From: Bacteroidota bacterium
GTDB taxonomy: Bacteria > Bacteroidota > Ignavibacteria > Palsa-1295
Assembly: GCA_021324685.1 (NCBI GenBank)
Contig: JAJPIQ010000086.1
Span: 1 to 40,686, forward strand
Length of the DNA stretch: 40,686 nucleotides
Direction: 5' to 3'
Part shown: positions 23,266-37,496 of the stretch, piece after piece
How the letters are laid out: each line of letters starts with the position of its first letter
How positions within the stretch are numbered: the first letter of the stretch is position 1
The notes under the pieces: generated by a model
Told to the model about the DNA's origin: nothing
The model's database searches: none
Seen by the model: the letters and a program-made list of their open reading frames with translations, nothing else
Made by a program: the position numbers and the translations under genes

Positions 23266-24930
23266 TTAACGTCCCCGTCCCAGAGATTCGAGCCGTTCGA
23301 TACTTTCGAATGCAGAAATTCCAGAGTCCATATTGGCAATTTCCCGCGTCGTTGTTTTATCTACGAAGACCCGTGCGATCGCGGCAAGGAATTTCAAATG
23401 GTTCGCCCGCCCAACGGCCGGAGATAGGAACAGCAATACGATGTACGCCTTATCGTCGCGCCCAAGCGACATCACGCCTTGCGGAGTGAGTGCCATCGCG
23501 GCATGGATATCGGTGATCGCTTCGAAACCGGCAGAATGGGGAATTGCGATACCGGTATCCAGGAACGTACTCATAAGGCGCTCCCGACGCATGATCATAT
23601 CGAGCATTCCGGCGCGGTGCTCTGCCAGTTCCGGCCGTTGTTGAACCAGGTGATCGATCAGCACGGAAATCGTCTGTTCGACCGTCGTGACACCTCGAAG
23701 ATTGGCAACGATGTCGTTCGATTTGATATAATCTGTCAGCCGCAACCGCTCCTCCGCCGGGGGAAGGAGCGATGGCGGGGACGGCAGCGAGATTCCGTCC
23801 GCGCCGGACTTCTTCATTGGGACGATCGAAACGCCAATTTCGCCGACCTGCTTCAATAATTCGCCGACGACCGAGCGGGAAAGGACCCGTTTCCACCATG
23901 CCCGCTGGGTTGCTCCGATCACAAACTGGGTAATTCCTTCCTGGCGCGCAAAGTCCGTTAGCGTCTCCGCAATCGAACGCCCCCGGAGTTGAACGACGGT
24001 CGCTCCCAAAGAACGTGCGAGCGTAAAAGCTTCTCGCAACAGTTGCAGCCGTTCTTCGGACGGCTTTGTATCTTCGGCTTCCACGAAGGCCACGATCCAT
24101 TTCGCGTTCATACGGCCGGCCATCCGCGACCCATACCGGATCAGTTGCGGAGCCGCGGAGGTCGCTGGGATGGCGACCAGCACTTTTTCGCCGCTGGGCG
24201 CCGTACCGGGCGTGTTCGTCTCATGCCGCGCTTCCTTATCTTTTTGCTCGACATCGTTCGCGAGTTCCCTTAGGGCCAGTTCTCGCAGCATACTGATATT
24301 ACTGCGGCTGAAAAAGTTCTTCAGCGAGCGTTCGATCCGTTCTTTTGGATAGATCTTCCCTTGTTCCAGTCGCTCCCGAAGTTCGTCCGGCGTCACGTCG
24401 ACGATGATCATTTCTCTCGCGAGCGAAAAAAATGTATCGGGCACTCGCTCCTTGACTTCGACGCCGGTCATCCGTTCCACCATATCGTGGACGCTTTCCA
24501 GATGCTGAATATTACAGGTGCTGAATACGGCGATGCCGGCCGCTAAAATATCCTCGATGTCCTCATATCGTTTGACGTGCCTGGTCCCCGGAGCATTGGT
24601 ATGGGCCAGTTCATCGACAAGGACGATCTCGGGTTTGCGCGCGATCACGGCGTCGGTATCCATTTCGCGGAGCTGGACACCTTTATATTCATACGATTTC
24701 GGCGGGATCACTTCAAGATCGCCCAGTTGTGTCAGCGTTTCCGGTCGTTCATGGGGCTCGACATAACCGACCACGACGTCGATCCCTTTCCGTTTCAAAG
24801 CATTGCCGTCCTGGAGCATCCGATAGGTCTTTCCGACCCCCGGTGCCGCGCCCAGATAAATGCGAAGGGGACTTTCCTTCGCATATTTTATCTCATGGAG
24901 CAGGTCTTCAACAGAAAGGGCTTCTGTCAT
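23266..24930 (-). CDS. KdpD-type sensor fused to USP and PTS EIIA (PtsN-like) domains, no kinase domain
   Basis: The product is 554 residues. Residues about 18-230 are the KdpD N-terminal sensor domain, with Walker A GAAPGVGKT (28-36), Walker B-like EIVLVDELAHTNAPG and the CNIQHLESV segment. Residues about 245-375 form a universal-stress-protein domain (EKVLVAIPATS, IGATQRAWWKRVLSRSVV). Residues about 395-540 form a PTS EIIA type-2 domain whose active-site motif GIAIPH is intact (His465). The membrane helices and histidine kinase core of standard KdpD are absent. In E. coli the separate EIIA protein PtsN binds and stimulates KdpD, so the fusion joins known partners. The gene is last in the kdp operon, 3 bases after kdpC. 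It may sense K+ or c-di-AMP and signal through the separate kinase upstream; that is inference. Confidence 0.9.
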   Translation of the reverse strand: MTEALSVEDLLHEIKYAKESPLRIYLGAAPGVGKTYRMLQDGNALKRKGIDVVVGYVEPHERPETLTQLGDLEVIPPKSYEYKGVQLREMDTDAVIARKPEIVLVDELAHTNAPGTRHVKRYEDIEDILAAGIAVFSTCNIQHLESVHDMVERMTGVEVKERVPDTFFSLAREMIIVDVTPDELRERLEQGKIYPKERIERSLKNFFSRSNISMLRELALRELANDVEQKDKEARHETNTPGTAPSGEKVLVAIPATSAAPQLIRYGSRMAGRMNAKWIVAFVEAEDTKPSEERLQLLREAFTLARSLGATVVQLRGRSIAETLTDFARQEGITQFVIGATQRAWWKRVLSRSVVGELLKQVGEIGVSIVPMKKSGADGISLPSPPSLLPPAEERLRLTDYIKSNDIVANLRGVTTVEQTISVLIDHLVQQRPELAEHRAGMLDMIMRRERLMSTFLDTGIAIPHSAGFEAITDIHAAMALTPQGVMSLGRDDKAYIVLLFLSPAVGRANHLKFLAAIARVFVDKTTTREIANMDSGISAFESIERLESLGRGR

Positions 24931-24933
24931 GCA

Positions 24934-25509
24934 TTATTTGGGAATATGATGAAGAAGGTCCAGATTGAGTTCCAGCACATTGACATGGGGCTCCCCAAGG
25001 AACCCAAGGTCCCGGCCCTGGATGTGACGATCCACGAGTGCGATAACCGTATCGACGGACAGATTATTTTCACGCGCAACAATTTTTGCCTGGAGCAGCG
25101 CGTTCGCCACCGAAATATCGGGATCCAGGCCCGAAGCGGACATCGTCAGCATATCGGCGGGTAACGCCGTATCGAGTTCAGGATAGATCTTACGAAGCGA
25201 ATCGCGGTCGTGCGTGATCCGGTCGATGAGCGCCTTACTCGTCGGGCCGAGGTTGGTGGAACCCGAATTTGCAGCATCGTACCCGGTTCCTGCGCCGGAG
25301 GGACGCGTCCGGAAGAATTTTGCCGAGGCAAATTGCTGCCCGATGAGTTCCGATCCGATCACCGTGCCATTTCGCACGATCAGGCTTCCGTTGGCCTGAT
25401 GAGGGAAAAGGAGTTGACCGATGCCCGTCATGGCAAGGGGATAAATAATTCCAACAAGGACCGTCAGGACGACGGTCATGAGGATGGAGGTAATAATCGT
25501 CTTAGTCAT
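24934..25509 (-). CDS. kdpC: Potassium-transporting ATPase subunit C
   Basis: This 191-residue subunit has one N-terminal membrane helix (about 8-28, ILMTVVLTVLVGIIYPLAMT) and a periplasmic domain. Family motifs are all visible: GSELIGQQF, FRTRPSGAGTGYDAANSGS, NLGPTSKALI and ALPADMLTMSASGLDPDIS, then VDRHIQGRDLGFLGEPHVNV. KdpC helps hold the complex together and raises affinity. It is 39 bases after kdpB and 3 bases before the KdpD-EIIA gene. Confidence 0.97.
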   Translation of the reverse strand: MTKTIITSILMTVVLTVLVGIIYPLAMTGIGQLLFPHQANGSLIVRNGTVIGSELIGQQFASAKFFRTRPSGAGTGYDAANSGSTNLGPTSKALIDRITHDRDSLRKIYPELDTALPADMLTMSASGLDPDISVANALLQAKIVARENNLSVDTVIALVDRHIQGRDLGFLGEPHVNVLELNLDLLHHIPK

Positions 25510-25548
25510 AAAAATCGAGTTGACGTTGAATACTTAGATTTCATCCTA

Positions 25549-27609
25549 TTATATTCCACAGGCCGATACAATAATGTCTATCGCCTTGATGCCGATGAAC
25601 GGAATGATGACGCCACCCAAGCCATAAATCACGATATTCCTTCGCAATACGGCCGCTGCGCCCAGGGGCCGGTATTTAATACCCTTTAGCGCCAGCGGCA
25701 CGAGCGCAATGATGATCAGTGCGTTAAAAATAACGGCGGAAAGAATGGCGCTCTGCGGCGAATGCAAATTCATAATATTGAGCGCCGCAAGTTCCGGGAA
25801 CGCGGCCATGAACATGGCCGGAATAATTGCGAAATATTTTGCGACGTCGTTGGCAATGCTGAAGGTCGTGAGCGCGCCTCGCGTCATGAGCAATTGCTTC
25901 CCGATCTCGACCACTTCGATAAGCTTCGTCGGATTGCTATCGAGATCGACCATGTTCGCGGCTTCCTTTGCGGCCATGGTGCCGGTGTTCATCGCTACGC
26001 CAACGTCGGCTTGTGCCAGTGCGGGCGCATCGTTCGTTCCATCTCCCGTCATGGCGACCAGTTTACCGGAGGCTTGCTCCTTGCGAATGAGCGCCATCTT
26101 CGTTTCCGGCGTCGCTTCGGCAAGGAAATCGTCCACGCCGGCTTCCCCGGCAATGGCTTTGGCGGTGAGCGGATTGTCGCCGGTGATCATCACCGTTTTA
26201 ATGCCCATGGCGCGGAGTTGATCGAACCGCGCGCGCATGCCCTGCTTTACTACGTCCTTCAGGTGAATGATGCCGAGAACCTTCCCATCCTCCGCAACGG
26301 CAAGCGGCGTTCCGCCGGACGTTGCAATGCGGGTCACGGCCTGCTGAAGATTATCGGGAATGCCGGAGCGACCCGATATTTTTTCAATCGCATCGACGGC
26401 CCCTTTCCGGATGGCGCGACTCCCATCGGTGCCAATGTGTTTGACATCGACTCCGCTCATGCGCGTCTGCGCGGAAAAGGGGATGAATGTTTTTTCTGCC
26501 GCAATAAAATCGGCCGGAAGTTCCTTTACGATGTCGCGCGCAAGGGTCACAATGCTGCGTCCTTCCGGCGTTTCATCGGCAAGGCTCGAAAGATGGACGA
26601 TCTGGGCGAGGTATTCTTTCGTAATGTCCGGCGCCGGAATGAACTCCGTGGCCATACGATTGCCGATCGTGATCGTTCCCGTCTTATCGAGCAGGAGCGT
26701 GTTCACATCCCCGGCGGCTTCCACGGCGCGGCCCGACATGGCCAGCACGTTGCGCTGCAGCACGCGATCGATGCCTGCAATACCGATCGCCGAAAGTAAC
26801 CCGCCGATCGTCGTCGGAATCAGACAAACGAGGAGCGAGATCAGCACGACGACGGAGATCGTCGTCGAAAGATATTGTCCGAAAAAGAACAACGCGACGA
26901 CCGCAATGAGGAAGATGATCGTCATGCCTGCAAGCAGGATCGTCAGCGCAATCTCATTCGGCGTTTTTTGACGAGCGGCCCCTTCGACCAGCGAGATCAT
27001 CCGATCGATAAAGGTCTCTCCGGGATTCGAAGTGATCTTTACCTTGAGCCAATCGGAAATGACGCGCGTGCCGCCGGTAACGGCACACCGGTCGCCGCCC
27101 GACTCCCGAATGACCGGCGCGGACTCGCCGGTGATCGCCGATTCGTCCACCGAGGCAATGCCTTCGATCGCATCGCCATCGCCAGGAACGATATCTCCGG
27201 CTTCGATGAGTACCACGTCCCCTTTGCGGAGCATCGTGGCGTTGACGACGGAAGTGGTCCCGCCCTTTTCGATCTTCTTTGCCATCGTTTCGGTCTTCGT
27301 CTTTCGAAGGGCATCGGCCTGCGCTTTACCGCGGCCTTCGGCCATCGCTTCGGCGAACGTTGCAAAGAGCACCGTGAACCAAAGCCACGCGGTAATAAGG
27401 CCGGCAAAGAGTGCATCGCCGTGGGACATTCCCGCAAGATCGCGAATCCAGGCGATCGTCGTGAGCGCGGCTCCGATCTCGACGACGAACATGACCGGAT
27501 TTTTATAGAGCAGGCGCGGGTCGAGCTTTTTCAGCGCATCGACCACGGCGCGGTTCACGATCGCGGGATCGAAAAGTTTTTTCTGCTCGTGTATTTCGTG
27601 TTTTGCCAT
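25549..27609 (-). CDS. kdpB: Potassium-transporting P-type ATPase subunit B
   Basis: This 686-residue catalytic subunit of the KdpFABC pump has all P-type ATPase motifs: TGES at 160-163 (actuator domain), the phosphorylation site DKTGTIT with Asp308, [12 protein letters not shown], and the hinge [20 protein letters not shown]. It hydrolyses ATP in the cytoplasm and drives K+ movement taken up through KdpA. The length is normal. Spacing is 35 bases from kdpA and 39 bases to kdpC, on the same strand. Confidence 0.98.
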
Positions 27610-27644
27610 GGAAAAATAAAAATCGTAATTTTAGAATAAAAATC

Positions 27645-29372
27645 TTAGAATAATTTTCCGTTTTGCATTACCAAATGCTCGAGGATCGGCCCGAGCGAGA
27701 GGGCCGGGAAAAATGTGAGGCCGGCAACGATGAGGATCACCATAATGAGGAGCGCACTGAAGAGCGGTGTGTTCGTCAGGAAGGTCCCGGCCGACGGCGC
27801 GATCGCCGTCTTCTTCGCCATACTTCCGGCGATGGCGAGGATGGGAACGATCACAAAGAAGCGGCCAATGAGCTCCGAAAGTCCCTGCGTGATGTTGAAG
27901 AATTGTGTATTGGCGTTCAACCCCGCAAATGCGGAACCATTATTTCCTGTCGCGGAGACGAACGCATAGAGAATCTCCGACAGGCCGTGGGGGCCGTTGT
28001 TGGCAAGGCTCTTGAGCGCAACCGGGTTGACGACGGCCCACGCGCTGAATCCGAGCATGCAGAGTGCCATCGAGAGCAGGGCGATCATCGAGAGCTTTAC
28101 CTCCTTCGATTCGATCTTTTTGCCCAGATACTCCGGCGTGCGCCCGACCATCAGGCCTGCGATAAATACCGATAGGATGACAAAGATCATCATGCCATAG
28201 AGCCCGGCCCCAACACCGCCGAAGATGACTTCGCCGATCATGATGTTGAATAGCGGGACCATGCCGCCGATCGGCGTAAAGCTCTCGTGCATCGAATTCA
28301 CCGCACCGCAGGAAGCATCGGTCGTAACGGTCGCGAAGAGCGTGCTCTGCGTAATGCCATAGCGCACCTCTTTTCCTTCCATATTGCCGCCGGGCTGCGT
28401 TGCGCTGGCCAGGGACGTGATGCCGAGCTTATCGAAGTTCGGGTTTCCAGACTGCTCCGATACGTAGCAGGTGACGAGTCCTGCCAGAAAAAGGAATGTC
28501 ATCGCGCCCCAAACGGCCCATCCTTGCTTGGTATCTTTCGACATTCGGCCAAACATATATGTCAGCCCGGTGCCGATGGAGAAGATCATGATCACTTGCA
28601 AGAAGTTCGTGATCGCCGTCGGATTTTCGAACGGATGCGCCGAGTTGGCGTTGAAAAATCCGCCACCATTCGTTCCCAAAATCTTGATCGCTTCCTGCGA
28701 AGCGACGGGGCCCATCGCGATCGTTTGCTTCGCGCCTTCGAGTGTCGTCGCCGTCACATACGGTGCGAGGTTCTGGATCATGCCCGACGCCATGAAGATG
28801 ATTCCCGTCAGAATAGACAGGGGAATTAACAGGTAAAGCGTGCAGCGGACAAGGTCGACCCAGAAATTGCCGATCGTTTGGACCGAGGAGCGCACCAGCC
28901 CGCGCACCAGTGCCACGGCGACTGCAATGCCGACGGCGGCGGAGGCAAAATTGTGGAATGCCAGCCCCGCCATCTGTGTGAAGTAACTCATCGTCGTTTC
29001 GCCGCTATAAGCCTGCCAGTTCGTGTTCGTCGTGAAGCTCATCGCGGTTCCGAAGCTGAGGTCCGGAGCGACCGCGCCAAGGCCCTGCGGGTTCCAGGGA
29101 AGGAATTGCTGCAGCCGCATCATCGCATAGAGGACGAGCGCGGTCACCGCGCTGAAGACGAGCATCGCGCCCGAATAGGTCGTCCACTTCATTTCGGACG
29201 TGGGATCGATCCCGCAGAGGCGATAGATTAATCGTTCCAGCCACCCGAAGATCGACGTCAGGAACGTGTTTTCACCGCGAAAGACCTTCGTGAGGTACAC
29301 GCCCATCGGCTTCGTGATGAGAACAAGGATCACGAGATAGGCGAACAGTTGGAGGAATGCGTTGGTAGTCAT
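27645..29372 (-). CDS. kdpA: Potassium-transporting ATPase subunit A (canonical copy)
   Basis: This 575-residue K+-binding subunit starts at the ATG at 29372, directly after kdpF; an earlier in-frame start at 29402 would overlap kdpF. The four filter loops look canonical: FTTNTNWQAYSGE, LGTNGGGFFNANSAHPFEN, FTPIGGMVPLFNIMIGEVIFG and ATGNNGSAFAGLNANT. Ten or so hydrophobic segments are seen. It is followed by kdpB in the same operon. A second, diverged KdpA is encoded at 35758-37473. Confidence 0.97.
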   Translation of the reverse strand: MTTNAFLQLFAYLVILVLITKPMGVYLTKVFRGENTFLTSIFGWLERLIYRLCGIDPTSEMKWTTYSGAMLVFSAVTALVLYAMMRLQQFLPWNPQGLGAVAPDLSFGTAMSFTTNTNWQAYSGETTMSYFTQMAGLAFHNFASAAVGIAVAVALVRGLVRSSVQTIGNFWVDLVRCTLYLLIPLSILTGIIFMASGMIQNLAPYVTATTLEGAKQTIAMGPVASQEAIKILGTNGGGFFNANSAHPFENPTAITNFLQVIMIFSIGTGLTYMFGRMSKDTKQGWAVWGAMTFLFLAGLVTCYVSEQSGNPNFDKLGITSLASATQPGGNMEGKEVRYGITQSTLFATVTTDASCGAVNSMHESFTPIGGMVPLFNIMIGEVIFGGVGAGLYGMMIFVILSVFIAGLMVGRTPEYLGKKIESKEVKLSMIALLSMALCMLGFSAWAVVNPVALKSLANNGPHGLSEILYAFVSATGNNGSAFAGLNANTQFFNITQGLSELIGRFFVIVPILAIAGSMAKKTAIAPSAGTFLTNTPLFSALLIMVILIVAGLTFFPALSLGPILEHLVMQNGKLF

Positions 29373-29373
29373 A

Positions 29374-29457
29374 TCAGAATTTTTCCGGGTAGAGCAGGGC
29401 ATACACGAGGTAGCCGAGCACCACGATCACGAGTGCGAGTAAAAAGATGCCGCTCAT
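29374..29457 (-). CDS. kdpF: KdpF small subunit
   Basis: This 27-residue single-helix peptide (core LALVIVVLGYLVYALLYPEKF) matches the KdpF family, which stabilises the KdpABC complex in the membrane. The ATG at 29455-29457 overlaps the stop of the preceding 27-residue gene (ATGA). The stop ends one base before the kdpA start codon. Confidence 0.92.
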   Translation of the reverse strand: MSGIFLLALVIVVLGYLVYALLYPEKF

Positions 29458-29537
29458 ATCTTTTCGAAATAATATTGCAATGCGATCGCGAGTCCGAAGA
29501 ACGCGAGCGTGATTGCGATGTAAAGGAGATCGTCCAT
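29454..29537 (-). CDS. 27-residue membrane peptide upstream of kdpF
   Basis: The minus-strand frame from ATG 29537 reads MDDLLYIAITLAFFGLAIAL plus QYYFEKI. It has one hydrophobic helix (about 4-20) followed by an aromatic/charged end. The stop overlaps the kdpF start by four bases (ATGA), and the start lies 24 bases after the histidine kinase stop, so the gene is embedded in the operon. Small single-helix genes with an LAFFAL-like core occur upstream of kdpF in other phyla, from memory. It could be a second small subunit of the pump or a link to the kinase; function unproven. Confidence 0.7.
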   Translation of the reverse strand: MDDLLYIAITLAFFGLAIALQYYFEKI

Positions 29538-29561
29538 AATAGTAAGTTAAACGATAGTAAG

Positions 29562-30812
29562 CTACACTGTTTTTGCCGGGAGTGCGATCGTGAATGTAGA
29601 ACCCTTCCCGACGGTGCTCGTCGCCCAGATGCGGCCGCCGTGCGCGAGCACGATCTCCCGCGCGATCGAAAGCCCCAGTCCCGTCCCTGCGCCGATGCCC
29701 ATGCTCGACTCTTCCACTTGTACGAACTTATCGAAAATGCGGCCTAAGTCGGCTTCGGAGATCCCTTTGCCATGGTCAGTGACCGAGATCCACACTTCCT
29801 GCTCGATCGGCTGGGCGGTGACGTTCACGGACGTTCCTCGCGGCGAATATCGGATCGCGTTCGAGACCAGGTTCGTGATCGCCCACGCCATTTTATTCCG
29901 GTCGAGTTCCACCGCGGGAATGTTCCTGGAAACGGCCACATCGATCGGCACGCCCGCCTCGTCGGCCCGCATCGTGACCGGCAGGATGGCGCTTTCGATC
30001 ACCGTTTCGATCTCGCTCGGAACTTTGGTCAATTGCAGGGTCCCGGCTTCGAGCTTTGCCAGGTCGAGGAGTTCCCGCACGAGGTTCAGCAGCCGGTTCG
30101 TTTCGGTGCGGATCGATGTAAGAAGTTCGGTCTGCTTCGGCGTGAGCGGCCCGGCCATGCCATCGGCGAGCATCCCGCTCGTGGTCTTGATCGCAGAAAG
30201 GGGATTTTTCAGTTCATGCGCCGCCGTCGCGACGAAATTGCTCTTCGCGCGGTCCAGTTCCTGGAACTCGGCCAGGCTGCGGCGAGAGACCGCGACCGCA
30301 AGGAAGATCGCCGCACCCATGAGCAGCGCCGTAATGGCGATCGTCGATGTGCGTGCGGAATCGCCCTGCGATTTGAATGCTTCCGAGCGGGCGAACATCG
30401 CGCGCTCGTTGAGTTGGAGGTTCGCTTCGCAGTCCGCGCGGACCCGATCGGCCAGGGCATTCGAGGGATGGGCGACGAATGCCGCATAGTCCCGATCGAT
30501 GGTCTTTGCCGCGTCGAGTTCTCCCGGTTCCGTGATGTTCTGGTATTCGAGCGCGAGGTTCTTTCGAACGACCGCATCGTTCGACGGAAACGCTTCCCGG
30601 CCGTTCACTTCCATGTTCGAAATGGCAGATTCCATATCGTGCATGTAACGGATCGTCCGGTAATTCTCGATAAAGACGTGCTCGGCCGACGTGCTGAGCG
30701 TCGAAATATGATAGTACGACCACGCCGCGATCGCGAGCGTCAGGACAATGATAAGAGAAAACCCGGTAAGGATGCGGACGCGAAGGCCGCGCGCGATAAG
30801 ACGTGATGCCAT
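29562..30812 (-). CDS. Membrane sensor histidine kinase at the head of the kdp genes
   Basis: The product is about 416 residues from the ATG at 30812. Two membrane helices (about 12-32, ILTGFSLIIVLTLAIAAW, and about 167-187, IAITALLMGAAIFLAVAV) flank a helical extracytoplasmic domain of the four-helix-bundle type. The kinase core is complete: phospho-acceptor box TAAHELKNPLSAIK, N box ITNLVSNAIRYSPRG, G1 VTDHGKGIS and G2 GAGTGLGLSIAREI. There is no HAMP, PAS or KdpD-like domain. It lies 24 bases before the small-peptide/kdpF genes, so it is the likely kinase partner for the kinase-less KdpD-EIIA protein at the operon end. The frame is open a further 119 codons to an ATG at 31169; the later start was chosen because it puts the first helix near the N-terminus. 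Confidence 0.88.
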   Translation of the reverse strand: MASRLIARGLRVRILTGFSLIIVLTLAIAAWSYYHISTLSTSAEHVFIENYRTIRYMHDMESAISNMEVNGREAFPSNDAVVRKNLALEYQNITEPGELDAAKTIDRDYAAFVAHPSNALADRVRADCEANLQLNERAMFARSEAFKSQGDSARTSTIAITALLMGAAIFLAVAVSRRSLAEFQELDRAKSNFVATAAHELKNPLSAIKTTSGMLADGMAGPLTPKQTELLTSIRTETNRLLNLVRELLDLAKLEAGTLQLTKVPSEIETVIESAILPVTMRADEAGVPIDVAVSRNIPAVELDRNKMAWAITNLVSNAIRYSPRGTSVNVTAQPIEQEVWISVTDHGKGISEADLGRIFDKFVQVEESSMGIGAGTGLGLSIAREIVLAHGGRIWATSTVGKGSTFTIALPAKTV

Positions 30813-31169
30813 GGGGCGTTTGGATTTTGTCCCAAAATTACGGCTAACCGTCTCTAAGACCGTGGCAGGATGGCCATTTTCAATGTCGCCCTTCACCCAT
30901 CGCTGTGAACGAGCAAATGCTCGCTGGCGGCGCATCTCCGCAGCGCGTTTTTCGAGATCGCTCCGCTCTGGCCATCTGCCGAGGGATGAGCCAAACGTGC
31001 TCATTCGCACGGATCGCACCGGCGGCTCCGGTAACCGAATTCGCCCCAGTGTGTAAGCGTCCGTTAGGTACGGCGTAAATGGCAGCGCGCGCGCGGTACC
31101 GATCGCGGCCGAGCTGACAAACGCCGGCACTGAAGCGAGCTTAGGCAATATGGAGAGGAGTTCCCGCAT
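30813..31169 (-). other. Open 119-codon upstream extension of the histidine kinase frame
   Basis: The kinase frame has no stop back to an ATG at 31167-31169, which is 39 bases after the porin stop. The extension would be Arg-rich and soluble (EKRAAEMRRQRAFARSQRW is typical) and matches no domain I know. Codon third positions are GC-rich, as in coding DNA. It may be a true N-terminal extension, a separate decayed gene, or a dispersed repeat inserted between porin and kinase. Confidence 0.35.
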
Positions 31170-31208
31170 GGATTGCGATCGACCATTCGTTAGCGTTGCG
31201 TTAATAAA

Positions 31209-32657
31209 TTAGAACCTGCATAGTAGTCCCACGATGATGCGCGATTCTACTTTCACCAGGTCGGGTGCCCATCCTTCCGGAAGCGGAGTTCCCAAATACC
31301 CATCGGGCGAAGTTACGCCACCCGGCCCCGCGAAATAAGGTACGCTTGCCTCGCGATGGACGAATTCCAGCCGCCAGGTAATAAGCTCGTTCGGCATCCA
31401 GTCCAATGTCGTCGAGCAATCCCAGCCGGTGAATTGATCGCCCGGATTTTCCGTGAAGGGGTGGGTTCCCGTCACAAGCTGCGGTCCTGTCGCCGTTTGC
31501 ACGACATACGGGATCGGGCTTGCATCGCCAGTCGGTGCGAGCACGAGGTAGCGACCTGGATTGTGGATCCATCCTCCGCCAAAGGTCCAGCCGAAGTGAT
31601 CGTTATCGAACCAGAGCCGATGATAGGCCATACCGCTGATAAAAAACTGCGCCGGACCGAGCACGGGATCGGAATGGAACCCATTCACGCCGTCGCCTGA
31701 CTCCTCGCCAATATCATTGGTGAGCGAGAAAGCCGCGCGGTGCACAAAGCTTCCCGGACTATTGTAATAACGGACTTCAATGCTATTGTCCGTATGAATT
31801 CGAATTCGATTTGGATGGTCCTGCGTGGAATATCCATAAAAGTTATTGGAAAGTGCTTGGAACCATTCGGTGGGGCGCCAAAGGATCTGCCCGCCCGTTG
31901 CGGGGCCGGTAGTAAACTTCGCATAGGACTGCCATCCATTCGTAATCCACGGTTCGATCTTTAATTTGTCGGACGGGAAAATCTGTATGCGCATACCGTT
32001 GAAGAACCATGGGGTATTATCGGACGTGTACGAAGGCTGATATGCCCAGTTCTCGGCGTTGTAGTACGAAAACAGTCCGATGTATGACATAAAAATACCG
32101 GCTTGCACATTGATACCGTTCCAGACATCGAAATGATAGCCGGCATACCCTTCGCTGAAGTAGCGGTAAGCATCGGAGAGATCGTATTGCCCATGGAGCG
32201 TGCTAAGATCGTTGCGAGGGACGACCGTTGAGCGGGTTCCCAGCTGCAGCAGGATGCGTCCCATGACGTTATCGTAGTGGAAATCTCCGCCCGCGGCTAA
32301 GAGATTGACTTCGAACTCGTTATCGCGTGCGAGCGTCGTGGAACCCGTTACGGTATGGTCGATCGGGTGCTGGTTCGACGCCGTGTAGTTTGCGTCGAGT
32401 AAAAATTCCCCTGTAAAATACTTCGAATCGAGCAGGGCGGTATGCTGGCGGTCGTTGCCATTCAGCCATGTGAAATCGCCAAACGCGAAAGGATCCGCAG
32501 GTTTGGTGGTATCTATAGTTGTTGTGGAATCCGCCGGAGCGGGCGCCGTAGGTGCATTCGATGGCGTCGAAGATGATCGATCATCCCCGGCGTGAGCACT
32601 ATTCAAGGAAAATATGGTGAGTGCCGTGAGGCAAAGAGTAAAAAGAAATGCTTTCAT
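31209..32657 (-). CDS. BBP2-type outer-membrane beta-barrel porin (minus arm of potassium locus)
   Basis: The product is 482 residues from the ATG at 32657, chosen because a signal peptide follows at once (FLFTLCLTALTIFSLNSAHA). A Ser/Thr/Pro/Ala-rich linker (about 25-52) precedes the barrel. Barrel segments include GYHFDVWNGINVQAGIFMSY, GLFSYYNAENWAYQPSY and KLKIEPWITNGWQSYAKF, the pattern of PF07642-type porins. The last strand ends VGLLCRF with terminal Phe, as outer-membrane insertion needs. Porins of this family are found beside kdp genes in other bacteria. Here it is the first gene of the minus arm and could let K+ into the periplasm under limitation; this is inference. Confidence 0.85.
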   Translation of the reverse strand: MKAFLFTLCLTALTIFSLNSAHAGDDRSSSTPSNAPTAPAPADSTTTIDTTKPADPFAFGDFTWLNGNDRQHTALLDSKYFTGEFLLDANYTASNQHPIDHTVTGSTTLARDNEFEVNLLAAGGDFHYDNVMGRILLQLGTRSTVVPRNDLSTLHGQYDLSDAYRYFSEGYAGYHFDVWNGINVQAGIFMSYIGLFSYYNAENWAYQPSYTSDNTPWFFNGMRIQIFPSDKLKIEPWITNGWQSYAKFTTGPATGGQILWRPTEWFQALSNNFYGYSTQDHPNRIRIHTDNSIEVRYYNSPGSFVHRAAFSLTNDIGEESGDGVNGFHSDPVLGPAQFFISGMAYHRLWFDNDHFGWTFGGGWIHNPGRYLVLAPTGDASPIPYVVQTATGPQLVTGTHPFTENPGDQFTGWDCSTTLDWMPNELITWRLEFVHREASVPYFAGPGGVTSPDGYLGTPLPEGWAPDLVKVESRIIVGLLCRF

Positions 32658-32927
32658 AAAAAACAACGACCAAACAATGTTAACTTGGTCGGCCGCAGGG
32701 CAAATAATGCGCCATGCCTCCATTTCTATCGAATACGCTAAATTATTGCAGGGGAAAGATAGAGACCGTAGCGAAACGCTACAGTCTGTATTCTGATACG
32801 CTACGATACCGTAAGAATCTTACACGACGGGAACATATCCTTTCCGTGCAGATAGGATGGGCGCTGTGTATGTCATGAGTTAAGCGGATGATTCTATACT
32901 GGCGTCATAATTGCCGCACCATCGAGC
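32658..32927. promoter_or_regulatory. Divergent promoter region between two porin genes
   Basis: This 270-bp gap separates two porin genes transcribed away from each other. It holds two inverted repeats. CGACCAA (32667-32673) and TTGGTCG (32685-32691) flank 11 bases, close to the minus-strand start. GTAGCG-AAA-CGCTAC (32768-32782) is perfect, and another CGCTAC follows at about 32799. The second element lies near the middle of the gap and could be an operator serving both directions. No promoter boxes are assigned. Confidence 0.55.
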
Positions 32928-34019
32928 ATGAAGACGACCCGAATTGTCATTTTATTAACATTATGGTTGGGAATTAATCCCAGCAGGTCACTTGCGCAGA
33001 CCTGGGACACGCTATCGACGCGCGGCGAATCGAGTTCTTTTGAAATGTGGACCTATTTGGAACCCTATTTTGCATACGATCTCAATGATCCGGCTTCGCA
33101 TAACATCCCCTATCTCTATAATTACAGCCGTCACAATGAGTTCAATCTCAATCTTGCTCTTATTGAAGCCGATTATCAGGGCGAGCACATGCGAACGACA
33201 ATAGGATTACAGACCGGAACGTATCCCATGATGAATTATAGTGCGGAACCCTCGCTGTTCCAGCATATCTACCAGGCATTTGGCGGCGTTCAGATTGCGC
33301 CCGATCTTTGGTTCGACGCCGGCATATTTTCTTCCCACATCGGGATCGAATCTGCGCTCGGCAAGGAAGAATGGACGCTCACACGTTCACTCTGCGCCGA
33401 GAACAGCCCGTATTTCGAGACGGGCGCGCGCATGGCATACGATCCCGAAGGGCCGTGGAGCTTCGGACTCTACGTGCTTAATGGCTGGCAAAATATCGCC
33501 GACCTGAATTCGAATAAAGCGCTCGGAACCCAAATACAATTCACGTTCGATAGCGCTGTAACGCTGAACTCCAGCACGTTTTACGGAAATGAAAAGCCGG
33601 ACAACGCCAAACAGTGGCGCTTCTTCCATGATTTTTATGTCTTGTGGACCATCAGTCCCACCATAGGGATTTCGGGAACGTTCGATATCGGATGGCAGCA
33701 ATCCGCGCCGCACAGCGCGAGCAGTGACCGCTGGTACACCTTTGCGCTTATCGGACATTATCAGTTTGCAGACCACTGGGCGATCGGACTTCGCGGCGAG
33801 GAATACAACGATCCGGCAGGAGTCATTGTACCGACGGGGACACCGAATGGGTACCAAACTTTTGGTTATTCGGGGAATATCGACTATATTGTATCCGAAC
33901 ACGCCACACTCCGGTTTGAAGCGAAGCATTATTCGAGTAGAGACGATATTTTCGTCAAAGATAACACACCGACGAATGGCAGCACGGTCCTGACATCCGC
34001 ACTTGGAATCGAATTTTAG
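32928..34019 (+). CDS. BBP2-type outer-membrane beta-barrel porin (plus arm of potassium locus)
   Basis: The product is 363 residues with a signal peptide (RIVILLTLWLGINPSRSLAQ). It lacks the Pro/Thr linker of the minus-arm porin and is about 120 residues shorter, but shares the barrel pattern: DLWFDAGIFSSHIGIESAL, GLYVLNGWQNIADLNSNKA and a terminal strand ending TSALGIEF. NGWQ in the middle also occurs in the minus-arm porin, which supports common ancestry. The first gene of the plus arm, it is followed by the DUF2254 gene after a 159-bp gap. Confidence 0.85.
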   Translation: MKTTRIVILLTLWLGINPSRSLAQTWDTLSTRGESSSFEMWTYLEPYFAYDLNDPASHNIPYLYNYSRHNEFNLNLALIEADYQGEHMRTTIGLQTGTYPMMNYSAEPSLFQHIYQAFGGVQIAPDLWFDAGIFSSHIGIESALGKEEWTLTRSLCAENSPYFETGARMAYDPEGPWSFGLYVLNGWQNIADLNSNKALGTQIQFTFDSAVTLNSSTFYGNEKPDNAKQWRFFHDFYVLWTISPTIGISGTFDIGWQQSAPHSASSDRWYTFALIGHYQFADHWAIGLRGEEYNDPAGVIVPTGTPNGYQTFGYSGNIDYIVSEHATLRFEAKHYSSRDDIFVKDNTPTNGSTVLTSALGIEF

Positions 34020-34178
34020 GAATTTGCATAATGCTATGATGATCGTAGCGTTTTGCCATAGGTGGGTATTCATCAGGCAGGAAAAATCCGCAGATTCCTA
34101 AATTTTGGCTTTGGCATTCTCCTTGCGTTTTTTGACCGTCAGTGACGTGTTGCGGATTCTTTTCTTTCATTCCTAACG

Positions 34179-35507
34179 ATGCTCGGCCCTAAAACGTCGG
34201 TCCTTCGCTCCCAGCGCGACATCAATCTTTGGCGTATCCCCCTGTTGCTATCCCTTGCGGCGGTCGGGCTGTTCGCGGTCACGATGGTTCCGGACGTGCT
34301 CGCAGCGATGGGAATCATTCATATTCCCTCCTGGCTCACGATGGGCAGTATTGACGACGCTCGCGCGATCCTGAGCGCAACGATGGGTGCCGTCGCGACC
34401 GTGCTCGCGCTCATTTTTTCAGTGGCGTTGCTTGTGCTTTCCATGATCGCCACCCTGTTCGGGCCGAGGCTGCTCTACCGGTTCCTGCAGGATAAAGTGA
34501 CCCAGATGACGATCGGCATTTTTATGGCTACGTTCGTCTATATCTCGTTAGTGTTCCTCGTCACGCATCAAACTTCCGATTCCACATTCATTCCCCAGAT
34601 CTCCCTCATCATGAGTTGGGTGCTGGTCGTTGTAAGCTTTGGCTTTTTGGTCTATTATAGTCATCGGATCGCGACCTCGATCCAGAACCCCGATCTGGTC
34701 GCGCATGTGGCGGGCGATATCTATCCGCATGCCTCGAATGCACACGAGCGAGGAACATTCGAAGGGATCGGAGTAGCACCCGAGGACGACATCGTTCTTC
34801 GCGAGGCATCGGAAGGCGCGGTCATTCGAAGCACGAAAAGTGGCTATTTGCAGTTTATCGATCATGAAGTGTTGGTGCTCGCCACACAAAAAGTGGGAGC
34901 GAAAATTATTTTTCGGTTCCGTCCGGGACAATTTATTTTGCGCGGGGAAGAGCTTGCCAGTGTTTGCCCACCGGAAGATATCACCGTTCTTCACGACGCG
35001 ATCCACCGAAGTGTAAAAATCGGCAATCATCGCACGCTTACCCAGGACAGCGAATTCGGCATCGCACAAATCGTCGAAATTGCCATTCGGGCGCTCAGCC
35101 CCGCCGTGAACGATACCTTCACCGGTATGGCGTGTGTCGATTGGCTCGGGGATGTCCTGATCGGTCTCGCGGAAAATCCGCCGCTCGAGGGGAACTGGTT
35201 CGATCTCGATGGAACATTGCGTGTCTGGATGCCGGCTATTCGTTTGGAACGTTTAGCAAAACACGCATTCGATCTCATTCGGCAATCGGCCGTGCAAAAT
35301 CCAGCGGTGCTGATCCGTCAGCTCGATTCGATCCGCCGCCTCGCGCCTCGCATGCCGGAACCGGCCAAACTCGTATTGGCGGAACAAACAAAAGCGATCC
35401 GCGATACCGAAGTGACGGATGTTGCGGCGATGGATCGCCGAGATATCGAGAGGGCCGTCGAACGCGCACGACGGGCGCTCAAAATGGACACTCATTTCTG
35501 GGAATAA
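34179..35507 (+). CDS. DUF2254 membrane protein
   Basis: The product is 442 residues. Four hydrophobic segments occupy the N-terminal half: about 15-38, 65-95 (AVATVLALIFSVALLVLSMI), 106-128 and 145-165. The C-terminal half is soluble and contains the DUF2254 landmarks YLQFIDHEVL, FRPGQFILRGE, RTLTQDSEFGIAQIVEIAIR and LSPAVNDTFTGM. DUF2254 proteins are inner-membrane proteins of unknown function. The gene is followed by a small membrane-protein gene and a KdpA paralogue, which hints at a link to cation handling. Confidence 0.88.
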   Translation: MLGPKTSVLRSQRDINLWRIPLLLSLAAVGLFAVTMVPDVLAAMGIIHIPSWLTMGSIDDARAILSATMGAVATVLALIFSVALLVLSMIATLFGPRLLYRFLQDKVTQMTIGIFMATFVYISLVFLVTHQTSDSTFIPQISLIMSWVLVVVSFGFLVYYSHRIATSIQNPDLVAHVAGDIYPHASNAHERGTFEGIGVAPEDDIVLREASEGAVIRSTKSGYLQFIDHEVLVLATQKVGAKIIFRFRPGQFILRGEELASVCPPEDITVLHDAIHRSVKIGNHRTLTQDSEFGIAQIVEIAIRALSPAVNDTFTGMACVDWLGDVLIGLAENPPLEGNWFDLDGTLRVWMPAIRLERLAKHAFDLIRQSAVQNPAVLIRQLDSIRRLAPRMPEPAKLVLAEQTKAIRDTEVTDVAAMDRRDIERAVERARRALKMDTHFWE

Positions 35508-35511
35508 AGTA

Positions 35512-35748
35512 GTGGATGCCTTAACCCTGTTCGGCCTTATTGCCGTGACCGCGATGCTCGCGTGCTATGCGCTCGAGAACTATGCTCCGGTATTCATCCT
35601 CGCCTTTGCGTGTGCCTGTGTGATGGGATCCGTGTATGGATTCCTGCAAGGTGCATGGCCGTTCGGCATCGTAGAGGCGATCTGGTCGCTGGTTGCCGTT
35701 CGCCGATGGCTTGCCAAACGCCGTGAAATTTCGAGGCGTTTTTTTTAA
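35512..35748 (+). CDS. Small two-helix membrane protein between DUF2254 and the second KdpA
   Basis: The product is 78 residues from a GTG at 35512, 5 bases after the DUF2254 stop. No ATG fits, since the frame upstream shadows the DUF2254 gene. There are two hydrophobic helices (about 2-18, ALTLFGLIAVTAMLACYAL, and 26-45, VFILAFACACVMGSVYGFL), then QGAWPFGIVEAIWSLVAVRR and a basic tail. I recall similar small proteins in many genomes, but without a function. It ends 9 bases before the KdpA paralogue start, so the two are probably translated from one message. Confidence 0.75.
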   Translation: MDALTLFGLIAVTAMLACYALENYAPVFILAFACACVMGSVYGFLQGAWPFGIVEAIWSLVAVRRWLAKRREISRRFF

Positions 35749-35757
35749 TCCATCCTC

Positions 35758-37473
35758 ATGTCGATTCACCTGCTCGAACCGATCGCACTCTTCCTACTGC
35801 TGCTTGCGGTTACCAAACCGCTCGGAACGTATATGTTTTGCGTGTTCTCGGGGGAGCGGACGGCGCTCACAAAAGTTCTCGGTCCCCTCGAACGATTAAT
35901 TTACAAACTCTGCCGCGTCCATGCTCGCGAAGAAATGCACTGGAGTCGATATTCGCTCTCACTCCTGCTCTTCAGTGTTGTGGGAACGCTTGTTCTGTAC
36001 GCGGTCGTCCGCCTGCAGTATGTCCTTCCCGGGAATCCCATGGGCGTTCGCGCTCTGGCTCCCGATCTTTCCTTCAACACGGCAGTGAGCTTCGTTACCG
36101 GAACAAGCTGGCAAGCCTACGCCGGTGAATCGACGATGAGTTATGTTACCGACATGGCTGGGATTGCCGTGCAGGATTTCCTCTCGGCTGCCGCGGGACT
36201 TGCGGTGGCGATCGCGATCGTTCGCGGCATGGCCCTCTCCAAAGTAGAAAGCCTTGGAAATTTCTGGGTGGACCTTGTTCGCTCGACGCTCTACATTCTG
36301 GTCCCACTCTCCATTGTGGGGAGCGTTATCTTCATCGCGGGCGGCGTCATTCAGAATTTCTCGCCCTCGATCACGGCTTCGACCGTCGAAGGCGCGCGGC
36401 AAATACTTCCCATGGGGCCGGTTGCGAGCGAGGAGATCATCAAGCTCCTCAGCGCGTCCGACGGCGGAGCGTTCTTCAATGCCAGTTCCGCCCATCCCTT
36501 CGAAAACCCGAGCGCATTTGTGAACTTCCTTCAGATCATCGCGCTGCTCCTCATTCCTGCCGCGCTCACGTACACGTTCGGCTGCATGGTGAAGGACCGC
36601 CGGCAGGGATGGGTCCTCTTCGGGGTGATGAGCGTGCTTCTCTTCGCCGGAGGGTTGGGAATGTATGCAGCCGAAGCGCATGGGAATCCTTCCATTGCCC
36701 ATCGTTCGATCGGCGCGAACGCCACCCAGCCGAATATGGAAGGGAAGGAGGTTCGATTCGGCATTGTAAGCTCCACCCTGTACGAGACAACGTCCACGGC
36801 AACGTCCGATGGCTCGACGAACGCTTCCATCGACAGCATGACGCCGCTCGGAGGGATGGTCGCGCTCGTGAATATGATGCTCGGGGAAATTATTTTTGGA
36901 GGAGTGGGTTCCGGGTTGTACGGGATGCTCCTCTTCGTGGTGCTCACGGTGTTCCTGGCGGGACTCATGATCGGCCGCACACCCGAATATCTCGGAAAAA
37001 AGATACAAGCACGGGAAGTCAAGCTTGCACTGCTTGCGATGCTGCCCACGACGTTTTGCGCGCTCGGGTGTTCCGCGTGGGCTTCGGTTTCGCCCGCGGC
37101 CCTGAAGGGCCTTGGGAACTCCGGCACGCACGGACTGACGGAACTTCTTTACGCCTTCACCTCCACCGCCTCGAACAACGGCTCCGCGATGGCGAGCCTG
37201 AATGCGAACACCCACTTCTGGAACATCACCACCGGACTGGCGATGCTCGCAGGCCGCTTTACGACCATGATCGCCATGCTCGCGATGGCCGGCGGCCTTG
37301 CACAAAAGACCGCCGCCGAACCGACGCCATTTGTCTTCCCGACCAACACGTTCCTCTTCGGCGCCCTCCTTGTGGCGGTGATCTTCATCGTCGGCGGTCT
37401 GACCTATTTCCCCTCACTTGCGCTCGGTCCTATTCTCGAACATTTACAAATGGTAGCAGGGAAGGTGTTTTAG
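35758..37473 (+). CDS. Second KdpA paralogue with altered filter loops, no partner kdpB
   Basis: The product is 571 residues, clearly KdpA along its full length and collinear with the canonical copy in this window. Of the four filter loops only the third (DSMTPLGGMVALVNMM) is close to normal. Loop 1 is FVTGTSWQAYAGE (Gly and Ser where TNTN has Asn). Loop 2 is LSASDGGAFFNAS, where the canonical copy has LGTNGGGFFNAN. Loop 4 is TASNNGSAMASL where the canonical copy has ATGNNGSAFAGL. No kdpB, kdpC or kdpF is nearby on this strand. It forms an operon-like row with a porin, DUF2254 and a 78-residue membrane protein. It might replace KdpA in the pump, work as a separate channel-like protein, or have changed ion choice; all three are inference. 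The frame is intact. Confidence 0.95.
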   Translation: MSIHLLEPIALFLLLLAVTKPLGTYMFCVFSGERTALTKVLGPLERLIYKLCRVHAREEMHWSRYSLSLLLFSVVGTLVLYAVVRLQYVLPGNPMGVRALAPDLSFNTAVSFVTGTSWQAYAGESTMSYVTDMAGIAVQDFLSAAAGLAVAIAIVRGMALSKVESLGNFWVDLVRSTLYILVPLSIVGSVIFIAGGVIQNFSPSITASTVEGARQILPMGPVASEEIIKLLSASDGGAFFNASSAHPFENPSAFVNFLQIIALLLIPAALTYTFGCMVKDRRQGWVLFGVMSVLLFAGGLGMYAAEAHGNPSIAHRSIGANATQPNMEGKEVRFGIVSSTLYETTSTATSDGSTNASIDSMTPLGGMVALVNMMLGEIIFGGVGSGLYGMLLFVVLTVFLAGLMIGRTPEYLGKKIQAREVKLALLAMLPTTFCALGCSAWASVSPAALKGLGNSGTHGLTELLYAFTSTASNNGSAMASLNANTHFWNITTGLAMLAGRFTTMIAMLAMAGGLAQKTAAEPTPFVFPTNTFLFGALLVAVIFIVGGLTYFPSLALGPILEHLQMVAGKVF

Positions 37474-37496
37474 CAGTAGCAGGGAAGGTGTTTTAG
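37453..37496 (+). repeat. 21-bp tandem duplication across the KdpA paralogue stop codon
   Basis: GTAGCAGGGAAGGTGTTTTA plus G occurs at 37453-37473 and again at 37476-37496. The first copy encodes the last six residues (VAGKVF) and the stop. The second lies just after the stop and is not translated with the gene. Confidence 0.92.

Follow-up and report, generated by a model that had tools for sequence, protein, structure and literature searches.

From archaea to enterobacteria the filter of KdpA hardly varies, and studies of the sharp K+ selection of KdpFABC have relied for the most part on a small number of laboratory mutants. Selectivity of the complex resides in this filter, the site in KdpB being promiscuous, and the substitution G232D alone permits coupled transport of Rb+ and NH4+ (PMC12629597). 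KdpA from Escherichia coli does not by itself support K+ uptake (PMC6255902). The locus described here carries a second KdpA, KdpA2, whose filter departs from this pattern at several positions at once. The window analyzed is an entire contig of 40,686 bases, belonging to a 3.47-Mb assembly that is 98% complete.

kdpA2 (35758-37473, plus strand) is an intact frame from ATG to TAG encoding 571 residues, just as its coordinates, frame, and length had been read in the original prediction. By the cut-offs of curated profiles its product is a full-length KdpA (Pfam PF03814 over residues 10-563, 724.7 bits against a cut-off of 22.6; NCBIfam TIGR00680, 667 bits against 387.7), and it shares 58% identity with the canonical KdpA encoded in the same window (27645-29402, minus strand). 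An AlphaFold2 model (pLDDT 80.6, pTM 0.85) matches the KdpA chain 5mrw_A with a TM score of 0.91, so that KdpA2 has the KdpA fold; relative to E. coli KdpA (KdpFABC; PDB 5MRW, 6HRA, 7NNP), it retains the ten-helix SKT plan, the structures aligning at 2.6 Å with 46% identity. Confidence is low for loop 2 in the models of both KdpA2 and the canonical copy, and filter geometry is therefore left out of account. The channels TrkH, KtrB, and HKT of the SKT superfamily are distant fold matches, with a TM score of only ~0.5, and, unlike in those systems, a TrkA/KtrA-type partner gene was not noticed beside kdpA2 in an unsystematic look. The last codons of kdpA2 lie in a tandem repeat (37452-37495) in which gtagcagggaaggtgttttag occurs twice, spanning the stop codon.

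Two orthologues, 70-71% identical to KdpA2, occur in independent MAGs of the same GTDB family, one in a genome of the same genus (G005) and one in a genome of another genus (G009; 67% complete); every other KdpA in the order's 13 genomes is at most 61% identical to KdpA2, and no further orthologue was found in 294 genomes of the class, 104 of them with KdpA. Among 84,980 species, a collection from which the window genome has possibly been left out, the loop 1 pattern GT-[S-like]-WQxYxGE was matched among KdpA genes only by the G005 and G009 copies and by two from Holophagaceae (GTTWQ). A loop 2 pattern sought in 395 genomes of the phylum returned, among the matches listed (a sample without G009), only the window genome and G005. 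A KdpA tree, suggested earlier as a check for a stable clade, joins the three orphans in a single clade (100/100) whose sister group (100/99) is formed by the family's canonical KdpAs, a position that leaves horizontal transfer from outside unsupported. kdpA2 is an old duplication, since lost or never present in most relatives. Because synonymous sites are saturated, dN/dS proper was set aside in favor of differences by codon position, which between kdpA2 orthologues are ~0.25/0.15/0.62 and point to strong purifying selection on the protein. For the same pair of genomes, non-synonymous divergence is 0.226 in KdpA2 versus 0.103 in the canonical copy, or about twofold.

The altered loops TGTSWQ, SDGGAFF, and MASL that first drew attention to the gene are all present, and the filter substitutions recur in two independent genomes; being common to three independent assemblies, the changes are not the product of sequencing error or a chimera. 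Two elements of that list are private to the window copy, namely the replacement of glycine by alanine at 234 and by serine at 473 (E. coli numbering), since both orthologues read SDGGGFF and MAGL at these places. There are also changes that the list did not hold: one residue inserted directly ahead of loop 2 (LLSASDGG versus L-GTNGG), SDG in place of SCG or SNG in loop 3, and three amide-to-acid substitutions outside the filter loops. In E. coli numbering, the differences from E. coli KdpA that are common to all three orphans comprise N112G, N114S, G229A, N231D, C344D, F471M, Q129D, N137D, Q222E, and the loop 2 insertion, which follows residue 228. Five of these replace an amide or cysteine with an acid (Q129D, N137D, Q222E, N231D, and C344D). 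Motif alignment suggests that residues 112, 231, 344, and 467 occupy equivalent places at the middle of the four filter strands; three of these residues would then be changed.

How unusual is this combination? In a reference set of 35 canonical KdpAs of the class plus E. coli KdpA, 141 positions are at least 95% conserved, and 13 of them differ in all three orphans (112, 114, 129, 137, 222, 229, 231, 350, 351, 450, 471, 518, and 519). Invariant positions are changed more often within the filter (5 of 19) than elsewhere (8 of 122; Fisher p=0.017), a comparison that excludes the insertion and position 344, where the orphans have D and the reference proteins C or N. None of six control KdpA clades has a change at an invariant filter position, with one to three invariant positions changed in five of them and 11 in a sixth, broad clade. 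A comparison with 59 further KdpAs found N114S, N231D, C344D, Q129D, Q222E, and the insertion in none of them. The residues N112, N114, G229, and N231 show no variation in 12 KdpAs drawn from Alpha- and Gammaproteobacteria, Deinococcota, Actinomycetota, Bacillota, and Halobacteria, where the loop 2 insertion was not found either and D never occupies position 344. The canonical K+ filter (N112, N114, N231, loop 2 length, and C, N, or T at 344) is thus lacking in the three orthologues and present in nearly all other copies. Since this filter is lacking and the gene is not encoded with kdpBC, we class KdpA2 as a KdpA variant, apart from the standard subunits of KdpFABC. A changed ion choice, one of the functions initially proposed, would fit the concerted filter changes.

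Outside the filter, the tunnel and KdpB-interface residues that were compared are conserved. Like E. coli KdpA, KdpA2 retains Q116, G232-G233, S343, G345, and N466-S469, as well as the segment GGVGSGLYGM. Eight of eight named conserved residues are unchanged in the orphans: E370 and R493 of the vestibule, R400, which forms a salt bridge to KdpB, and F386, L422, V538, and L541 of the tunnel and interface seal (roles from PMC12629597 and PMC6255902), together with G379, which we added to the tunnel and interface list on its invariance. The orphans have threonine for V496, where canonical copies vary too. The E. coli mutants G232D and Q116R resemble KdpA2 in having a changed filter within an otherwise intact KdpA; they are, however, single laboratory mutations, whereas KdpA2, a paralogue found in nature, retains G232 and Q116 and differs at several other filter positions at once.

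Unlike in KdpFABC systems, kdpA2 shares no operon with kdpB and kdpC. The whole genome encodes two KdpAs, one KdpB, and one KdpC, and its sole KdpB and KdpC both belong to the divergent kdp operon of the window (23266-32723, minus strand; Table 1), in the order porin a, histidine kinase, KdpA, KdpB, KdpC, and KdpD-Usp-EIIA. The absence of a kdpB beside kdpA2 was correctly noted, and the search for a second one, extended genome-wide at 98% completeness, found none, ruling out a second kdpBC elsewhere in the genome. In the two genomes that have both KdpA copies, neither KdpB nor KdpC carries distinctive changes common to the pair, a lack of co-adaptation signal that we count as neutral. In G005, kdpA2 lies ~22 bp after the second BBP2 porin and adjoins the kdp operon as in the window; in G009, it stands alone, flanked by unrelated genes. 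The DUF2254 gene adjoins kdpA2 in the window genome only. A search of the window with Rfam returned tRNAs only. The operon also encodes what looks like a split Kdp sensor incorporating an EIIA domain: a kinase-less KdpD is fused to Usp and EIIA, and the histidine kinase is separate (23266-24930, minus strand, in the window; L034:2141-3802; L039:13075-14793). The KdpD-Usp-EIIA protein occurs in G001 and G005 as well, and G007 gave no EIIA match.

Table 1. Features of the kdp and kdpA2 region, with positions in the window.
Feature	Position	Strand	Basis
KdpD sensor (non-kinase) with Usp and PTS EIIA domains	23266..24930	-	profile search
KdpC, the genome's only one	24934..25509	-	profile, whole-genome search
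KdpB, the genome's only one; DKTGT, TGES, and GDGTND present	25549..27609	-	profile, whole-genome search
Canonical KdpA (TNTNWQ, TNGGG, SCG, NNGSAF)	27645..29402	-	profiles, alignment
Histidine kinase of kdp operon	29562..31169	-	profile search
BBP2/OmpL-like porin a, first gene of kdp operon	31209..32723	-	profile search
Sigma54-like site TGGCGCATTATTTGCC of kdp operon, 67 bp from palindrome	32699..32714	-	motif search
Palindrome TAGCGAAACGCTA (TAGCG-AAA-CGCTA), exact TAGCGWWWCGCTA, in 204-bp divergent region between kdp and kdpA2-side operons	32769..32781	.	motif search
BBP2/OmpL-like porin b; orthologue in G005 precedes kdpA2	32928..34019	+	profile search, neighborhood comparison
Degenerate copy of kdp palindrome, 2 mismatches, 66 bp before sigma54-like site	34046..34058	+	motif search
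Sigma54-like -24/-12 site TGGCATTCTCCTTGCG before DUF2254-kdpA2	34112..34127	+	motif search
DUF2254 membrane protein (PF10011, 300 bits), first gene of kdpA2 unit	34179..35507	+	profile search
Predicted small membrane protein, 78 aa, 9 bp before kdpA2, no Pfam match	35512..35748	+	ORF call, profile search
kdpA2, orphan KdpA, 571 aa, filter altered	35758..37473	+	profiles, 58% identity to canonical KdpA, fold model
Filter loop 1, T-G-T-S-W-Q; N112G, N114S (E. coli numbering)	36097..36114	+	alignments
Filter loop 2, S-A-S-D-G-G-A; one-residue insertion, G229A, T230S, N231D	36451..36471	+	alignments
Filter loop 3, S-D-G; C344D	36805..36813	+	alignments
Filter loop 4, N-N-G-S-A-M; F471M	37174..37191	+	alignments

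The putative promoter regions of the two units carry a common sequence signature. The exact palindrome TAGCGWWWCGCTA occurs once in the 3.47-Mb genome and one to three times in each of five sister genomes, and it is found at the kdp locus in all six. Its spacing to the sigma54-like site of the kdp operon is 66-68 bp in four genomes and 64 bp in a fifth. Across 503,550 bases, with both strands counted, seven pairs of palindrome and sigma54-like site were detected, six of them at kdp or kdpA2 promoters, and 1.2 Mb of control sequence yielded one pair by chance. Copies of the palindrome with two mismatches are no more frequent in the window than chance predicts; significance comes only from the pairing with a sigma54-like site at a fixed spacing. 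The paired elements at both units suggest that kdpA2 is likely induced together with kdp, the promoter evidence for kdpA2 coming from the window genome alone. Transcription of kdpA2 in G005 would start in the divergent region and include the porin gene, the fit to a sigma54-like site being weaker there, and no palindrome was found near kdpA2 of G009. A gene for an NtrC-type, sigma54-activating response regulator adjoins the kdp operon in sister genomes, and its 78% orthologue lies on another contig of the window genome; kdp in these bacteria appears to be under the control of an NtrC-type regulator instead of KdpE. Two more copies of the palindrome occur in G005 in the interval that separates the end of kdpA2 from that of the regulator gene (L034:14835-14870), so that the porin-kdpA2 pair of this genome has palindromes on both sides. 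In another genome (G002, L036:15012-16250), an ammonium transporter gene (PF00909) adjoins the kdp-linked NtrC-type regulator.

What might a second KdpA with a rebuilt filter do next to a single KdpBC? We propose the following model. Under a kdp-inducing condition, probably K+ limitation, the NtrC-type response regulator would bind the TAGCG-N3-CGCTA palindromes and drive the sigma54 promoters of both the kdp operon and the unit formed by DUF2254, the 78-residue protein, and kdpA2. KdpA2 would then take the place of the canonical subunit, KdpA1, on part of the KdpBC complexes, presumably assembling with KdpB, and bring in a filter with two asparagines lost, D231 and D344 gained, loop 2 longer by one residue, and three more amides made acidic. 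As selectivity is a property of the KdpA filter and the KdpB site is promiscuous, this swap would change the monovalent cation, or the K+ affinity, used by the same ATPase. Among the three functions suggested at the outset (changed ion choice, a regulatory decoy, and an alternative subunit for the same KdpB), the last is the best supported: with one KdpBC, coupling residues of the tunnel and interface kept, and a promoter signature common to both units, exchange of KdpA1 for KdpA2 is the simplest reading. A regulatory decoy is conceivable but less well supported. We give about an even chance to KdpA2 being a co-induced, exchangeable KdpA for the single KdpBC with altered ion choice or affinity. 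Against exchange are the position of kdpA2 outside the kdp operon, the two mismatches in the palindrome before DUF2254, the adjacency of DUF2254 to kdpA2 in the window genome only, and, as the main point, the lone kdpA2 of G009, in which KdpB and KdpC were not found.

This last observation is also what would be expected if KdpA2 had gone back to being a channel or uptake protein of the SKT type that works without KdpB, perhaps with DUF2254 and the 78-residue protein as partners, and the placement of kdpA2 in one unit with these two membrane proteins in the window favors such a function as well. We nevertheless consider it unlikely. As kdpBC would form one locus, it would be missed about one time in three in an assembly as incomplete as that of G009, and DUF2254 is not beside kdpA2 in either G005 or G009. 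Moreover, in E. coli KdpA, which alone gives no uptake, the pore is closed off beneath the intramembrane loop (PMC6255902), and KdpA2 keeps both GGVGSGLYGM and the tunnel residues directed toward KdpB. The retained interface residues would also serve a dampener that competes for KdpBC and forms a low-affinity or idle complex limiting K+ uptake, or one with altered coupling; there is precedent in E. coli Q116R and G232D, which reduce the apparent K+ affinity but leave transport coupled (PMC12629597). Filter changes that are specific, concerted, and kept under purifying selection point to a changed function more readily than to a mere loss of it, however, and a dampening role appears quite improbable to us.

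The nearby split Kdp sensor system, with its non-kinase KdpD-Usp-EIIA protein and separate kinase, makes it conceivable that KdpA2 serves in signaling rather than transport, as an extracytoplasmic sensor or receptor for cations, but KdpA2 has no signaling domain and the residues of the conduction path are kept, and we regard this role as very doubtful. It would be harder still to see kdpA2 as a functionless, decaying duplicate or an assembly artifact. Its doubled non-synonymous rate relative to KdpA1 and its absence from most relatives could be taken in that sense, yet the frames are intact in three independent genomes, selection on them is strongly purifying, and the filter changes are identical, so that decay has hardly any likelihood.

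Returning to the exchangeable KdpA, two other arrangements invite comparison. The Holophagaceae KdpAs with TGTTWQ (L063 and L066) resemble KdpA2 in N112G of loop 1, and in L066 a DUF2254 gene (L066:4154-5230) lies near kdpA, as in the window. These proteins are nonetheless only 43% identical to KdpA2 and have canonical loops 2 and 3 (TNGGG and ACG), which rules them out as orthologues, and kdpC adjoins in L063. Duplicate complete kdp operons, as in G019, likewise place a second KdpA in one genome, but there KdpB and KdpC matches lie near each copy (L044) and the filter is of the canonical type in the alignment. Distant second KdpAs (~34-42% identical) occur in G019 (L044), G130, G169, G233, G266, G280, and G285 of the class.

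Nothing on an orphan KdpA with an altered filter came to light in the titles and abstracts of the open-access literature searched. KdpA2 offers a natural test of selectivity and affinity, in which several filter positions and likely second-shell positions are changed together and the coupling path is kept. The broader notion of a P-type ATPase pump with exchangeable ion-selecting subunits, in which one KdpBC serves two co-induced KdpAs of different ion specificity or affinity, is put forward tentatively, as somewhat less than an even prospect. If KdpA2 does swap into the same KdpBC, this would be, as far as we know, the first P-type pump with interchangeable filters.
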